Assembly (NCBI RefSeq): GCF_014842925.1
Contig: NZ_JACYXJ010000003.1
Span: forward strand, 62,001 to 126,000
Reading direction: 5' to 3'
DNA: 64,000 bases
Source of the DNA: Roseibium polysiphoniae
GTDB lineage: Bacteria; Pseudomonadota; Alphaproteobacteria; Rhizobiales; Stappiaceae
Shown: in pieces, positions 40,859 to 50,000 of the stretch
Position numbering within the stretch: the stretch's first letter is position 1
How the letters are laid out: each line of letters starts with the position of its first letter
Translations under genes and position numbers: made by a program
The notes under the pieces: model-generated
Told to the model about the DNA's origin: nothing
The model's database searches: none
Seen by the model: the letters and a program-made list of their open reading frames with translations, nothing else

Positions 40859-42017
40859 TACCCAGCTCCTGCCTTACTCTACTTCGGCCGCTCTTCTCGA
40901 CCGCTAACCCGGAGGTTAATACATTTTTAACGTTTTGCGGACGGCTTGCGAAAAAAAGAAATCATTCAAGGGGGAAATTCACAGAAAATCCGCTGAAATC
41001 GGTCACTCTGCTTGGATCTACGCATGCATTGCCGGATCTTCTGTGCTGCGTCAGCAGGCGATGGCAAGGTCTCGCGATTTGCGTGTGGCAGGTTGCGGGG
41101 CGCCACTCCTGCGAGTGCGGGCTGTATCTGAGCAGTTCTCATCAGGAAAATTGACGCAAGACCAGCAGCAGGAGCGCCGCAAGGCATGTGCCTTCGGCGT
41201 GTTGGGGCGTTTGTGTTTTCCTGCTGTCTCGATCGCTTGAAAGAGACGGGATGGCAGGCGCAGCGGCCTTGCCGCGCGCGTGGGGTTTTAGGTGTTGGGT
41301 TTGACAAGACGTTGCGCCTGCCCGGGGTTCCTGCTCCTGGTGTCGGGGCGATGGACCTGCGTCTGGCCGTCCGCCTTTTCTGCGCCCCGGAGGTGGTGTG
41401 AGGCCTCCGGCTTGCCAGTTGTGACGACCCTCCGAAACGTGCCCGGCGCCTGAACCCGCCGGCCGCTCCGCTTCTGCAGCTCACCGGTCAGATCCTTTCG
41501 GCCTGACCTGGAACTCCAGTCTCCCGCCCCAGGTTCGGCCTTTCCATGGTGTCGGCCGAGCTCGGTCCCGTTCGCAGGAGACGCTTTCATTCTACGCCAG
41601 CCCCGGCGGGCGGGGATAACAAACGGTGGCTTTCCGGTTTGGCTAATCGGATCAAGGCCTTGGGTGGGGCCTGTTTTGCGGATTTGAGGGATAGGGTGGG
41701 TTTGCGCCGCGTTGCCAGACCACTGCTCTCATCCCCGCCCCACGAAGGGGGCATGTGCGGGGACCCACTGGCAGTGGGCGTTCGAGTATGAGCCGTAAGG
41801 CTGCGGCGTACTGGATCCCGGATCTCCGCTTGCGTTCCGTCCGGGAAGGCCGTCGAGGGTGTGGCAGGGCGCTGCCACACCCCTGGCCGAAGCGGCTATG
41901 TGGATTGGATCCCCGCACAAGGCGGGGATGACCGCCGTGTTTTTGGCAAAGACTATCCTCCCCCCTGTCGTCATCCTTGGGCTTGACCCGAGGATCCATA
42001 CCGTTTCCTATCCCAAG
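40859..42017. other. Intergenic stretch without a convincing gene, repeat-rich at its right end
   Basis: About 1.15 kb. Open frames exist on both strands (40966-41484 and 41288-41590 on minus) but have Arg/Ser/Pro-rich compositions and no domain. Around 41480-41530 there are two neat hairpins on the plus strand, GGTCAG...CTGACC and CTGGA-AC-TCCAG. From about 41720 it becomes a mosaic of palindromes (separate entry). It might hold a structured RNA or the remains of an element; I found no tRNA. Confidence 0.5.
41720..42010. repeat. Mosaic of palindromic (REP-like) repeats, left of the GIY-YIG gene
   Basis: Successive palindromes: CCCACTG/CAGTGGG near 41765, GGGTGTGGCAG/CTGCCACACCC at 41857-41882, ATCCCCGC-ACAAG-GCGGGGAT near 41908-41930, and CTTGGGCTTGACCCGAG at 41974-41991 inside a longer unit ending GGATCCA. 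Such units are scattered between genes in many alphaproteobacterial genomes. Confidence 0.75.
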
Positions 42018-42311
42018 ATGCAGAAGCGCTTCTGGGTCTACTTCCTGACGACGCGCAGGGGCGGCACGCTTTATACGGGCGTGACGAACAATCTTCCCAG
42101 ACGGCTGCTTGAACATACTTCCGGCACCGGATCGCAGTTCACCAGGCGCTATTCGGTCAAACGCCTGGTCTGGTACGAGGTACATCCATCCGCGCCTCAA
42201 GCCATTGCCCGCGAAAAGGCCATCAAACACTGGCCACGCGCATGGAAAGTCGAGCTGATCGAGGCCATGAACCCGAACTGGTTCGATCTCGGCAGGAATC
42301 TGAACTGCTGA
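42018..42311 (+). CDS. GIY-YIG nuclease family protein
   Basis: A 97-residue stand-alone GIY-YIG domain of the UPF0213/SLX1-like kind. Catalytic features are YFLTTRRGGTLYTGVTNNL (the GIY-YIG strands, here Y-F-L and Y-T-G), the Arg in LPRRLLEHTSG, and an Asn near the end, with HTSGTGSQFTRRYSVKRLVWYE typical of the group. The frame is open upstream through the palindromic repeat, but the ATG at 42018 gives the usual length. It lies alone, framed by palindromes in inverted orientation. Members may process DNA structures; none is assigned a firm role. Confidence 0.88.
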   Translation: MQKRFWVYFLTTRRGGTLYTGVTNNLPRRLLEHTSGTGSQFTRRYSVKRLVWYEVHPSAPQAIAREKAIKHWPRAWKVELIEAMNPNWFDLGRNLNC

Positions 42312-42646
42312 CTTCCGTTTCTTGACTTTGAAGCTTTCCCAAGCGGAGACGTCACGGAGTGGATCCTCGGGCTTGTCCCGAGGACGTAGTCCGTTACCGC
42401 GCCGCAAACCGGAGTAATGCTCTTTCGAGAGGTCGCGGCATGGATTGCCCCAAGGGGGAATGGTCGAGCCCCGTCATTCCGGACCGCGTGGCACACGGTG
42501 CCACCGCGTGATCCGGAACATGTCCCCGTTCAAGCCGGGGACATGTTCCGGATCTGTCGGCCCGCCTCCGGCGTGCTTGGTCCGGAATGATGGAGGGGAA
42601 GCTGCCCGATCCGGTATCCAGATGTGAGACCTGAGCCCGCACGATA
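42312..42646. repeat. Palindromic repeats right of the GIY-YIG gene
   Basis: Non-coding. Contains CCTCGGGCTTGTCCCGAGG at 42365-42383, next to TGGATCC, which is the left flanking unit in inverted orientation; a long imperfect palindrome bounded by TCCGGA/TCCGGA (about 42478-42516); and a near-perfect one, CATGTCCCC-GTTCAAGCC-GGGGACATG, near 42519-42546. A final GGTCCGGAATGATGGAGGGG copy is near 42580. No gene supported. Confidence 0.72.
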
Positions 42647-45187
42647 TTAAAGATCTTTCATTTTTTTTCCAGCGAAAGAACTAAATAAACCTCGTATTTG
42701 CCATTCTGGGAGTTTTCCTAACTCATCAACAAGCGCCCATTTTTCAATAGCAGTTCTTCCTTTGATGTCATCAATTCTCGCCGATAGTTTTGAAATTGCA
42801 GAATTGAATTTATCGGTTGTGCACAAATACATGTCATCGTTTGGATTTGCTTTTGTAGAACAGCTGCCATCAGGTCCAAGAAATAAAAAACCAACTATTT
42901 TGTGCTCTGGATAGTTATCCCTGACCCATTCAAGATGATCTAATCCCTGCCCAATATCATCTTTTTTGTATGTGGCCGGAGTTTTCTTATCTGTTTTGAG
43001 CTCAAACGGTATCAGTGTCTTTGATCTCGCATCCTCCCACAGCACATCGGGTCCTGTACCATATTCGTTATCAGGCCGTGTTGAGCGGTAGCCCAGTAAT
43101 TCTCCGACATATCTTACTGTTTCTTCGGCGGCATTGCTCGATAACTCGCTATAATTTGCTTTTGCTCGCGCCTTTAAAAATGCGGCGTAGTCGTTGAAAC
43201 TTCGGATACCAGCCTGTAGCTCATGTAGCAGCTTTTCATGAAATGGGTTCTCCGGTTCAGTTTTGAAATTAACCTCTTGAAACAATCTTTTGTGCGTAAG
43301 GTTCAAATGCGCGGAGAATCTCGCACTTGCTCGTAGATATAGAGCTGCGGCTTCATTGTCGTCCCCCTCCATATGATATGTAAGTCCAACCCAAAGACAT
43401 AACCATCCTGACAGCTTAGGATCTACTGGTGCAGTTTTATCCAGTTGCTCGATCAGGCAATCGCGCGCATCCACAATTCTATTCTGCCAAAGCATTGACA
43501 TAAATTTAGTTTCAGCCAGCGCGGAGTTTGCGAGTTTATTTTCTCTTTCTGCTATCTCAGTAAAGGTTTCTTTATCTATCTCAAGATTATCACGGTTTGC
43601 TGTATAGTAGTCAATCCAGCCTTGATCTCGATCTAGTACTTGAGAAATCGACTGAGTAATATCTGATTTTTTCAATTTGCTTCCAGTTTGTTCAAAAATA
43701 GATAAACTTAGGAGCACTTGCTTCTGAAGCGTGCCTGGAAGTAGGGCTATGTTTTTGGGTCTTTTAAGCCAATTGTTCATATCTGAACCAAGAGCAAAAA
43801 AGACCCCATAGTCTGACCGTCCTCGGTTAATTCGCCCAAATAACTGTGTTACGCGTGTTGCCATCTTTGCAGCGTACATGTTAGCCATTCCGAGAGACTT
43901 ATGTTGAAATGTCTCTAGCAGAGAAGAGCCAGTTGGAAGTCCGTCAATAAACATTATTCTGCAAGTGTTGTCGGGCAAGTCTATGCCGTCCACTCGCGAT
44001 ACCATAATAAAAGCGCCTGAAGCTTTATTTCTAAATTCTTCCAATTTCTTAGAAAAATCATCAGTGCTGGGCGGAGTTGCTATTCCTTTCCACCTGAGAG
44101 CATAAAAATAACTAGGAACTGAAATTAGTGCCTTCTTTTTCTTACTGATTGACTTGCATAGCTCTACAGTATCCACTTCTTTTTCGAACTCAGATTCAAA
44201 TAAAATAAGTCGCTCGCCGTTACCCGCGTCGTTGTTCGGATCTGGCTTGATTTCTATCGCTGGTATTCTGCCAAATGCTCTTGCGAAATCTGTTTGATGT
44301 TGAATTGTTGCAGAAAGATAAATCCTACGAACATTCTCCTCTTTAAAGAATGGGATGGAAAATACTGGGATAAATGGAGGTGTTATTTCTATGCTTTTTT
44401 GGCTAATTAAAATACAGCAATGCTTAACGTTGTCGTAGATTTTGAGGAATGGGAAAAATAGATCTTGATGCTTTCGGAAATTATTCTGTTTAAACACATC
44501 AATTATCTGATTTTCACATTCAAACGCGGTCTCTGGTGGGCAGAGTGTACATGAATTTATTCCCTCATCCTCGATCGTAAAATTTAAGTGTTGAAGTTTT
44601 CCAATGCTCTCGAACTTCGGCTTTATTATATCAATAATGTCTCTATACAGCTTTTCGTGTTTTGTTCTGTCTACAGTAACCGTAAAGCTATCTCTTATGA
44701 GTTTTTCTCCTACGTGTGCATCGTCAAAAATAATTGCCGTAGGAAAGAGCTCGTTTTTAAACTTTGTGGTTGAAGTGAAAAGTGCCTGGTAAGTAGTTAT
44801 GCAAAGCCCACGACCTGTCTCATAATAATCATTATTGAATTCTTGTTTTGCGCGAATTGAATGTTTTATACCCATTCTATTACATTCACGACTAGTTTGA
44901 TTCACTAAATCTATGGTCGCGCAAACGTAAACGACATTTTGGTGCTTTTCATTAACAATACTTTGTGCGATTAATATGCCAACAATAGACTTGCCGGCAC
45001 CAGTGTTTAGGGAGACTAAAATATCTTTCTTGTCTCTATTTTCATGCCAGCCTTTTAAAGCTTCTGCCTGCCCATCCCACAAATCGTTTGGAGCATTTTT
45101 TAGATTTGGAGTCTTTTTGAAGATTTCAACGGGATTGAGAGTCGGTTTGGAACCTTCGGGACGTTTAAGTGAACTAAAATCAACCAT
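42647..45187 (-). CDS. Superfamily-2 helicase fused to a PD-(D/E)XK-like nuclease (candidate defence gene)
   Basis: An 846-residue protein. Helicase motifs: Walker A SLNTGAGKS (residues 59-67), Walker B as IIFDDAH (153-158), motif III LSATI (291-295), motif V RVDGIDLPD (398-406) and motif VI QLFGRINRGRSDYG (448-461), closest in style to DEAH/XPD-like enzymes. A helical, TPR-like middle follows. The C-terminus has Asp714 (TGPDVLW), Glu729-x-Lys731 (PFELKTDK) and Gln747 (GQGLDHLEW), the layout of a PD-(D/E)XK nuclease. The DNA is much AT-richer than its neighbours, so it was probably acquired. A TATAAT lies four bases before the ATG and no clear ribosome-binding site exists. Likely acts on foreign DNA; function not established. 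Confidence 0.82.
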   Translation of the reverse strand: MVDFSSLKRPEGSKPTLNPVEIFKKTPNLKNAPNDLWDGQAEALKGWHENRDKKDILVSLNTGAGKSIVGILIAQSIVNEKHQNVVYVCATIDLVNQTSRECNRMGIKHSIRAKQEFNNDYYETGRGLCITTYQALFTSTTKFKNELFPTAIIFDDAHVGEKLIRDSFTVTVDRTKHEKLYRDIIDIIKPKFESIGKLQHLNFTIEDEGINSCTLCPPETAFECENQIIDVFKQNNFRKHQDLFFPFLKIYDNVKHCCILISQKSIEITPPFIPVFSIPFFKEENVRRIYLSATIQHQTDFARAFGRIPAIEIKPDPNNDAGNGERLILFESEFEKEVDTVELCKSISKKKKALISVPSYFYALRWKGIATPPSTDDFSKKLEEFRNKASGAFIMVSRVDGIDLPDNTCRIMFIDGLPTGSSLLETFQHKSLGMANMYAAKMATRVTQLFGRINRGRSDYGVFFALGSDMNNWLKRPKNIALLPGTLQKQVLLSLSIFEQTGSKLKKSDITQSISQVLDRDQGWIDYYTANRDNLEIDKETFTEIAERENKLANSALAETKFMSMLWQNRIVDARDCLIEQLDKTAPVDPKLSGWLCLWVGLTYHMEGDDNEAAALYLRASARFSAHLNLTHKRLFQEVNFKTEPENPFHEKLLHELQAGIRSFNDYAAFLKARAKANYSELSSNAAEETVRYVGELLGYRSTRPDNEYGTGPDVLWEDARSKTLIPFELKTDKKTPATYKKDDIGQGLDHLEWVRDNYPEHKIVGFLFLGPDGSCSTKANPNDDMYLCTTDKFNSAISKLSARIDDIKGRTAIEKWALVDELGKLPEWQIRGLFSSFAGKKMKDL

Positions 45188-45285
45188 GAAAATTATAGCC
45201 CTGCATCAGCTTGGTATTGTCGCAATAATAGCGATTCTGCTTTATGCTATCTAGGGTCGTTTTATTTGGTTCTGACAATTGAATT

Positions 45286-45468
45286 TCACCGCCCCGGCCT
45301 ACCTGATTTCTTCGGCCGGCCTCTTCTCCGTTTTTCGTCTGTCGGGTCCTCGTAAGAGCCTGCGCCGATCTTGCCGCGGATAACAGGCTTGGCATCGTCG
45401 GCCGGATCGAGGGGCTTGGTCGGCAGCGGGCCCTTGGCCAGCGGCACTTCCGTGCGGCCGACGGTCAT
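45286..45468 (-). CDS. Duplicated UvrB C-terminal tail (60-residue ORF)
   Basis: A 60-codon frame starting [16 protein letters not shown] whose product matches the last 60 residues of the UvrB in this window except for a few changes (TKPL for VKPF, PVIR for PLIR, final Arg for Gln). Similarity at DNA level starts abruptly at the ATTTC before the ATG. It ends in a basic [13 protein letters not shown] tail resembling an AT-hook. The ATG overlaps the stop of the small membrane gene as ATGA, so it might be translated. I read it as a displaced original or imported copy of the uvrB 3' end, left by an integration event. Confidence 0.75.
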   Translation of the reverse strand: MTVGRTEVPLAKGPLPTKPLDPADDAKPVIRGKIGAGSYEDPTDEKRRRGRPKKSGRPGR

Positions 45469-45664
45469 TTCAGCACGGTGAGATAGATCACCCAAGCAGC
45501 TGCGCAAAGCACGAAGCCTGCGCCGGCTCCGATGAGGGCACCCGGCAGCCGACGGGGGAACAGATACGCCCCAATGACACCGCCTAGAACAAGGCCGGGG
45601 GAGGCTGCAACAAGGAGCATCACCGCCAGGTCAAGGGGTGTGAAAATGCCGCCGATATCCGACA

Positions 45665-45665
<1 letters not shown>
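45465..45665 (-). CDS. Small membrane protein coupled to uvrB
   Basis: A 66-residue protein with two hydrophobic segments (LDLAVMLLVAASPGLVLGGVIGAYLF split by a short Arg turn from LPGALIGAGAGFVLCAAAWVIYL). The ATG shares its A with the uvrB stop (TAATG), a re-initiation arrangement, and its stop overlaps the start of the duplicated UvrB tail (ATGA). No family recognised. Its position between two uvrB 3' copies suggests it arrived with, or was trapped by, the duplication. Confidence 0.7.
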
Positions 45666-49000
<3,335 letters not shown>

Positions 49001-49097
49001 GCCTGCAATATGGGCCGAGTCAGGATCCGAGAAAAGGGGCCGGACCGCATTGGCAACGCAGATATGCACCTTCCTGACAGAAGGGTGTCAGGAGAAG

Positions 49098-50000
49098 TCA
49101 GTCTTTAAAGACATTCTCCCGATGCCAGGCCATGTAGTCCGGGTGCGGGCGTAAGTTTGGGTTTGTTGGGACCAGCGCCTTCATGTCTTTGTTGAGCAGA
49201 TGGGAGATGTCGTAGTTCAGATGACGTGATGGCAAGATCTCATGGCCGTCAGAAAGTGAAAGTAGTCCTCGATCAAACATCCAATGAACGGTGCCTGAGA
49301 GAGCGATGCCGTTTCGGACCGAGTCGTTGCCGCCTTTTTCGACTGGAACGATGTGTGCCGCCTCCACCTCCGGTCGCCCGCCGCCGTTGATCAACCGTAG
49401 CCCGGTGAATGCACAGGTGCGATCGTAGATTTGCCGAATGTGCTGTCTGAATTTTGCATCACGAAAGGGCCGGTTCACCAGTTGGCTTATGATCGGCCGA
49501 GGCCTGGGTGCACCATGGATGGCAGCTTGGGGCGGATGTCCAAAACCATCGATATTTTCTGGATGTTTTGGAGGGTCGATGCGGTCTGGCCATTCATCCT
49601 CTTCTGATAGTCCAGCTTCGACGATTCGAGCAAAAACGTCGCGTTCAATGACGCGAACAGCTTGGACCCGGTAGCCCGCATTGATTTCGCCTGTCTCAGT
49701 TATGAACCCCGGCTCAAAACCACCGTTCGCGGCACTGTCGACAGGATGATCAAAATTGATAAATTCGGCAATATCAGCATAGAAGTGGTCTGGCTTATCC
49801 GCATTCGGACGGACGCCATTTACAAGTCCGACGCTTGAATAGTGACGCCCTTTTCGGCCCAATACTGGACCATCATAAATAATCCAATCACCAATCGTTT
49901 GCTTCACCCGGGATAGGTATTGTTTCGGGAAATGGTATCTCTGAGCCGGGTCGTCATCATAGATGCTGTCAGGTCGGTGATAAAAAACGGCGTTGGCCAT
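49098..50000 (-). CDS. HNH endonuclease with N-terminal reader-like domain (candidate type IV restriction)
   Basis: A 300-residue protein. The C-terminal HNH domain is clear: CAFTGLRLINGGGRPEVEAAHIVPVEKGG (residues 196-224), then NGIALSGTVHWMFDRG, giving His216, Asn230 and His239 as the ββα-metal site. The N-terminal half begins with YHFPKQYLSRVKQTIGDWIIYDG and RKGRHYSSVGLVNGV, reminiscent of PUA/EVE-like domains that read modified bases, as in modification-dependent enzymes. Composition is less GC-rich than uvrB. It lies 97 bases upstream of uvrB on the same strand, near the helicase-nuclease gene. Specificity unknown; a recombination or repair role is the alternative. Confidence 0.78.
   Translation of the reverse strand: MANAVFYHRPDSIYDDDPAQRYHFPKQYLSRVKQTIGDWIIYDGPVLGRKGRHYSSVGLVNGVRPNADKPDHFYADIAEFINFDHPVDSAANGGFEPGFITETGEINAGYRVQAVRVIERDVFARIVEAGLSEEDEWPDRIDPPKHPENIDGFGHPPQAAIHGAPRPRPIISQLVNRPFRDAKFRQHIRQIYDRTCAFTGLRLINGGGRPEVEAAHIVPVEKGGNDSVRNGIALSGTVHWMFDRGLLSLSDGHEILPSRHLNYDISHLLNKDMKALVPTNPNLRPHPDYMAWHRENVFKD

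Follow-up and report, generated by a model that had tools for sequence, protein, structure and literature searches.

In a 64,000-nucleotide stretch of Roseibium polysiphoniae DNA (contig NZ_JACYXJ010000003.1, positions 62,001 to 126,000; hereafter the window), the minus-strand open reading frame (ORF) at 42647..45187, stop codon included, is by its sequence a member of the already described Hna family of single-gene defence systems and not a new system. We put at about 0.87 the probability that this gene, hna, is a horizontally acquired abortive-infection gene acting as a single protein and sitting in a hotspot of defence genes directly 3' of uvrB, a reading backed here by the family match, complete active sites, the fold, the foreign base composition, a scattered distribution and a recurrent insertion site. 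An earlier note made from the raw sequence had proposed an acquired, stand-alone helicase-nuclease defence gene. That reading found a genuine defence gene, as the full-length match to PADLOC family PDC-S28, the Hna entries of the PDB, the fold and the strong occurrence in few genomes of the genus bear out, though its candidate was not new: the family was already known as Hna and as PDC-S28.

The gene and its family

The ORF starts with ATG and encodes 846 amino acids with no internal stop, and the plus strand over the same span is riddled with stops; the earlier note had named no strand. All helicase and nuclease motifs that the earlier note had placed in the protein were confirmed at their residues and are conserved across an alignment of 91 rows. 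The superfamily 2 (SF2) helicase motifs, on the minus strand like every feature of the gene, are Walker A NTGAGKS (residues 61-67; 44987..45007), with G63 and K66 invariant in 91/91 rows; motif II DDAH (residues 155-158; 44714..44725), with D155, D156 and H158 equally invariant; motif III SAT (residues 292-294; 44306..44314), where residue 292 is S in 82/91 rows and T in 9/91; and motif VI QLFGRINR (residues 448-455; 43823..43846), with Q448, R452 and R455 in 91/91. The PD-(D/E)XK catalytic stretch (residues 688-747; 42947..43126) carries E688, P713-D714, E729-x-K731 and Q747: D714, like Q40 at the other end of the protein, is invariant, while E729 is kept in 87/91 rows and K731 and Q747 in 89/91 each. 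Thus conservation across the alignment argues that these motifs are not chance resemblances. The rows are the window protein, 18 sequences from plasmid records, 2 from other genomes and 70 from genome contigs, the last being the complete, clean ORFs among the best 80 of 407 loci matched by a 22-row profile (10 were dropped as truncated, frameshifted or containing X). A scan of the genome contigs with the single protein gave no match to close relatives.

The PADLOC model PDLC04987 (PDC-S28, in which we take PDC to mean phage-defence candidate) matched the product with 1081 bits over residues 1-845 of 846, and the second PDC-S28 model matched it with 491 bits. The founding paper on Hna is reportedly that of Sather et al. 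in 2023. On PDLC04986 the Hna gene of pSymA in Sinorhizobium meliloti (L066; G, L and C numbers are our handles for genomes, loci and contigs) scored 1020 bits, against 400 on PDLC04987. Above cut-off, Pfam placed only a ResIII/DEAD lobe and Helicase_C_2 on the window protein, and no NCBIfam model came near its cut-off (dinG_rel, 13.5 bits against 547.7). In the PDB, the sole protein matched by sequence at E values up to 10 was S. meliloti Hna (10uj, 9ykj and 9yhn; E 6.5e-49), for which structures and biochemistry exist (PMC13381803, in its available text). The same protein was the top fold match of the predicted model, with DinG and XPD next best, and the PD-(D/E)XK core order is present in the predicted full-protein model.

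At 39.8% G+C, hna differs from the rest of the window (59.7% with 41701-45300 left out): the two kilobase bins at 43001-45000 stand at 0.438 and 0.369, and the remaining 62 bins range from 0.518 to 0.659. The counts given in the earlier note, 24 G+C of 60 at 43501-43560 and 39 of 60 at 46501-46560, are exact. Its statement that the gene has no partner also holds, in that none is evident either among the neighbouring ORFs or in the Pfam scan of five neighbours, the nearest genes being uvrB and a small GIY-YIG ORF. Upstream of hna, a promoter-like sequence (45225..45253, minus strand) matches the consensus at 9/12 positions, with 0.2 such matches expected by chance; it is a consensus match only.

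Within the genus, PDLC04987 matched 4/45 genomes, strongly in two, the window genome and G037; in G031 and G002 it reached 21-25 bits over only a portion of the helicase. Among 151 genomes (the window genome included), 14 matched at E <= 0.001, five strongly and nine weakly, the weak matches spanning ~85-115 helicase residues. Homologues were found in 231/72,556 plasmid records, 108 of the 231 typed conjugative, and in 1/50,697 phages of a phage collection. The G037 copy lies in two pieces (L061 and L062) at the ends of contigs C15 and C1, neither of which is the uvrB contig, with one in-frame stop; since the pieces sit at two contig ends, carry that stop and lie away from uvrB, this hna is probably interrupted. 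Separately, the Lactococcus plasmid pMRC01 encodes a full-length Hna (L074:6001-8532; PDLC04986, 1060 bits). This plasmid is reported to have an abortive-infection trait without known explanation, for which Hna is a candidate; a literature search found no paper tying the pMRC01 homologue to the phage resistance of the plasmid.

Recurrent insertion just 3' of uvrB

The DNA just 3' of uvrB (45665..49069, minus strand, in the window) is a recurrent insertion hotspot that holds varied defence genes in related genomes. Among 45 genus genomes, uvrB lay in the fetched stretch of 43 and had a 3' flank of 1.5 kb or more in 41; an AT-rich occupant was counted when an ORF of at least 120 amino acids and <45% G+C overlapped the first 3 kb by at least 300 bp. 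Such ORFs occurred 3' of uvrB in 11/41 genomes, compared with 1/33 upstream flanks (p = 0.005) and 3/120 random windows (p = 1.9e-5). At 47% G+C the counts were 11/41, 3/33 (p = 0.048) and 5/120 (p = 1.5e-4), and at 50% they were 12/41, 3/33 (p = 0.029) and 10/120 (p = 1.6e-3). Outside the genus, 40 genomes with contig room, from the 115 other uvrB-bearing genomes of an order-wide draw (three of the 40 belong to the same family as the window genome), were counted under a slightly different rule, the ORF starting within 2.7 kb: 10/40 carried an AT-rich ORF 3' of uvrB, compared with 1/120 controls (p = 3.4e-6). Pooled at 45% over this order, probably Hyphomicrobiales, the counts were 21/81 within 3 kb 3' of uvrB and 4/240 in control windows (p = 1.7e-10); the latter were cut as 3-kb tiles from 40 stretches, each 19 kb long and placed at round coordinates. 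All these p values are uncorrected for kinship (G023 and G039, for example, have a cargo in common), and the thresholds were chosen with the window already seen.

A defence-type protein was recognized in 17/21 genomes with an AT-rich occupant, several of them weak-scoring; the control-window ORFs lay outside the PADLOC scan, so this share has no baseline. Within the genus, besides Hna in the window genome (G000), the occupants were a GmrSD_N+HNH protein in G026 (PADLOC NsnA at only 34 bits), full GmrSD in G031 (Orf5, 235 bits), a UG13b reverse transcriptase with SLATT in G019 (440 and 116 bits), a dGTPase in G039 (408 bits; G023 has an ORF of equal length and start, itself unscanned), an AAA_15 OLD-like ATPase in G016 (NsnB, 197 bits) next to a 169-residue ORF without matches, HipA_2 with DUF3037 in G005 and G010 (PDC-M66 candidates at 47-75 bits) and Fic in G004 (SoFic, 69 bits). 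The SPOR protein of G028 is not a defence protein, and a 145-residue ORF of G013 (47% G+C) matched no family. In the other genera, where one ORF per genome was scanned, we found an OLD-like AAA protein (G155, 125 bits), PDC-S59 (G103, 129 bits), a dCTP deaminase (G055, 513 bits; L251:4077-5600), a UG13a reverse transcriptase (G143, 720 bits; L253:3130-4929), PNP+STAND (G179, 35 bits; L254:2586-5684), SIR2+STAND (G107, Avs5 at 35 bits; L258:2520-4979) and SIR2_2 (G141, by Pfam only; L268:3042-5426), and in 3/10 genomes (G050, G181 and G145) the scanned ORF had no family match. The AT-rich ORFs at L250:4840-5493, L256:4214-5020 and L257:5164-5550, which matched neither PADLOC (E 1e-5) nor Pfam (E 0.001), are possibly undescribed defence genes. 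A position just 3' of uvrB can be read in many alphaproteobacterial genomes, and it offers a chromosomal address at which to find further defence genes.

The earlier note had held that homologues lying always in conserved core positions would refute its reading. They do not always lie so, but the window copy and three homologue loci do share one recurrent place, just 3' of uvrB, where the cargo varies between genomes. These three (L121, L133 and L150) are the loci, out of 101 Hna loci with unequal flanks (one genome counted twice, as L063 and L123), in which uvrB falls inside the fetched stretch. In the Methylobacterium locus L121 the stop codons of hna and uvrB abut, the genes being convergent; in the Jiella locus L133, also convergent and one of the 10 loci dropped from the alignment (broken frame), the uvrB stop lies ~30 bases past the matched Hna end.

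Comparison of paired genomes located the junctions. The sister genome G026 is collinear with the window on both sides of a variable segment (41722..45285) that it lacks, and it has the AT-rich GmrSD_N+HNH gene there in exchange. The segment ends at the stop codon (45286) of a second, diverged uvrB 3' end (45286..45471, minus strand; 164 bp at 84% identity to 45687-45850). Counted from the uvrB stop, the two genomes part at +379, where the stop codon of this duplicate has its last base. Between the two uvrB 3' ends lies a 66-residue ORF (45465..45665, minus strand), present in G026 too, with a weak, sub-threshold glycine-zipper match. Relative to G044, G005 has a 1,900-bp insertion that starts directly after the uvrB stop codon and contains, in this order, the HipA-like and DUF3037 pair and 184 bp repeating the uvrB 3' end (91%), after which the G044 downstream sequence resumes. 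In three further pairs (G019/G030, G023/G032 and G000/G021) the sequences part no more than 1-2 bases from the uvrB stop. These pairs are ambiguous: G000 and G021 are 78% alike there, and the end of the match may mark just the end of the coding sequence, while in the other two pairs the genome without cargo shows its own unmatched bases before the two become collinear again. Therefore the clean cases are G005/G044 and G000/G026.

Duplications of the uvrB 3' end longer than 100 bp occur in 3/43 genomes (the flank was shorter than 1 kb in two of the 43); none was found in the Hna-uvrB loci of other genera, the test being void for L150, whose early in-frame stop leaves the uvrB stop unplaceable. 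The window contains no tRNA gene and no Rfam match, which excludes a tRNA-type landing site there. No integrase was found among the five Pfam-scanned neighbours of hna or the scanned occupant ORFs, some small ORFs being left unscanned. An exchange through the uvrB 3' end, whether by homologous recombination or with a recombinase acting in trans, would account for the duplicated tails of the 3/43 genomes, not for the other genomes. A search of titles and abstracts found no report of a defence hotspot at uvrB, but it covered open-licence papers only, so the novelty of the site is unproven. A paper on an E. coli chromosomal island that names uvrB was set aside, as in its available text the name belongs to a mis-annotated small ORF and not to an insertion site.

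Two genes close to uvrB were also recorded. A single-domain GIY-YIG ORF (41859-42311, plus strand; PF01541, 57 bits), flanked on both sides by imperfect inverted repeats, has relatives in the fetched uvrB stretch of 26/43 genus genomes, the window included, with only three copies in its own genome; it is possibly a companion of the hotspot. On the other side of uvrB, a 300-residue HNH endonuclease (49098-50000, minus strand) resembles in its C-terminal part the restriction enzymes of phosphorothioated DNA (NF045808, 76.6 bits, below the cut-off of 180) and is present in the fetched uvrB stretch of 4/43 genus genomes, two of them partial. It could be a second defence gene.

Mode of action and rival explanations

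In the available text of PMC13381803, pSymA Hna is an ATP-inhibited 3'-5' single-stranded DNA (ssDNA) exonuclease that acts by abortive infection and for which no unwinding was seen. The earlier supposition that the window protein degrades invading DNA covers only part of this picture: by homology the protein should work through abortive infection and not by simple destruction of the invader. By analogy with this relative, the XPD/DinG-like ATPase half of the window protein would bind ATP and keep the enzyme at rest, with little nuclease activity; this restraint would be lifted by a phage product, for example an ssDNA-binding protein (SSB); and the C-terminal PD-(D/E)XK domain (D714, E729 and K731) would then degrade 3' ssDNA ends, halting both phage replication and the host cell.

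Several observations weigh against carrying this picture over whole. The window protein is only ~21-25% identical to the characterised pSymA Hna, and the VIA root-mean-square deviation between its model and 9yhn is 16.5 A, from which the domains are probably arranged differently in the model and in the solved structure. Moreover, the residues mutated in PMC13381803 (R36/Q39 and T30/D31/P34), from which its available text argues for ATP coordination and dimer autoinhibition, are largely replaced: in the N-terminal loop and Q motif KNAPNDLWDGQ (residues 30-40; 45068..45100), Q39 corresponds to Q40, but T30, D31, P34 and R36 are met by K30, N31, D35 and W37 (the T30 and D31 columns are gap-sensitive, two alignments differing by one residue). 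Since these four are not kept, ATP autoinhibition and triggering by SSB may not transfer to the window Hna.

At two of these positions the residue differs between clades of the tree (a short search, with SH-aLRT as the only branch support). Three clades take up all but four rows: A, of 40 rows with support 99, contains the window protein; B, of 21, contains pSymA Hna; and C, of 26, contains the Agrobacterium K84/Bacillota type. The position of R36, which is R in 19/91 rows overall, is W in 40/40 rows of clade A, R in 19/21 of clade B and Y in 21/26 of clade C; that of P34 is P in 13/91 rows, all in clade B (13/21); Q39 is invariant across the three clades. The ATP switch of clade A, with Trp at R36 and without Pro34, may therefore differ from that of the pSymA enzyme. 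As R36 and P34 are not family-wide, the generality of the switch proposed for the only solved Hna needs testing in other clades, and clades A and C make it testable.

Three other explanations were weighed. The gene could encode a DinG/XPD-type repair helicase with an added exonuclease, similar to ExoDinG and serving genome maintenance, a reading to which the next-best fold matches lend some colour and which PMC13381803, in its available text, touches on by drawing a comparison between Hna and ExoDinG; the presence of a strong match in only 2/45 genus genomes, the foreign G+C and the gulf between the dinG_rel and PDC-S28 scores make it very improbable. A translocating restriction subunit (type I/III-like or a Dnd/Dpd relative) whose partner is lost or lacking appears extremely unlikely: ResIII is indeed the best Pfam family (60 bits, residues 38-191) and dnd_restrict_1 matches weakly (26.9 bits against a cut-off of 600), but ResIII spans the first RecA-like lobe only, the match to Hna runs the whole length of the protein, and no methylase, Mod-type or other, is found among the five neighbouring proteins scanned.

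The plasmid records, nearly half of them typed conjugative, could instead point to an anti-plasmid or general anti-mobile-element gene that mobile elements carry for their own benefit, with phage defence secondary. The window copy, however, lies beside chromosomal uvrB, where relatives hold other anti-phage families, and the protection given by tested Hna extends to diverse phages (PMC13381803 and PMC12445080, in their available text), so we consider this very unlikely.

Beyond the acquired abortive-infection gene at a hotspot, which we prefer, a more specific proposal is offered tentatively, at somewhat less than even odds. Compact defence cassettes of Hyphomicrobiales would have the uvrB stop codon as their dedicated landing site. 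Each would bring along a uvrB 3'-end copy serving as the arm for attachment or homology, enter precisely at the stop with no integrase of its own and leave behind a duplicated tail open to renewed targeting, which would explain the swap of hna for GmrSD-HNH between sister species. In the same proposal, a switch unlike that of the pSymA enzyme would restrain clade A Hna, which has Trp at R36 and lacks Pro34.

Comparison with known systems

The closest characterised system is S. meliloti pSymA Hna, likewise a single protein of ~845 residues in which two SF2 lobes precede a PD-(D/E)XK domain. Its P712, D713, E727 and K729, mutated in PMC13381803 as the nuclease residues that matter (available text), align with P713, D714, E729 and K731 of the window protein, its Q39 is kept and its fold is shared with the window protein model. 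The two differ in clade (B and A, respectively), in their best PADLOC model (PDLC04986 and PDLC04987) and in the loop, where R36 is replaced by W, P34 by D, and T30 and D31 are not kept. PADLOC PDC-S28 (PDLC04987) itself matches over the full length with no architectural difference seen. Nearer relatives are the Hna proteins of Mesorhizobium dw_380 (L120) and Methylobacterium DS1.3.43 (L121), which are 49-51% identical to the window protein over the full length: L121 adjoins uvrB as the window copy does, but is convergent with it whereas the window copy is co-directional, and L120 has no uvrB inside its fetched stretch. DinG, CasDinG and XPD, in contrast, give no full-length match to the window protein, and the DinG/XPD fold alignments listed stop at or before ~residue 530 of the model, short of the Hna-type C-terminal nuclease.
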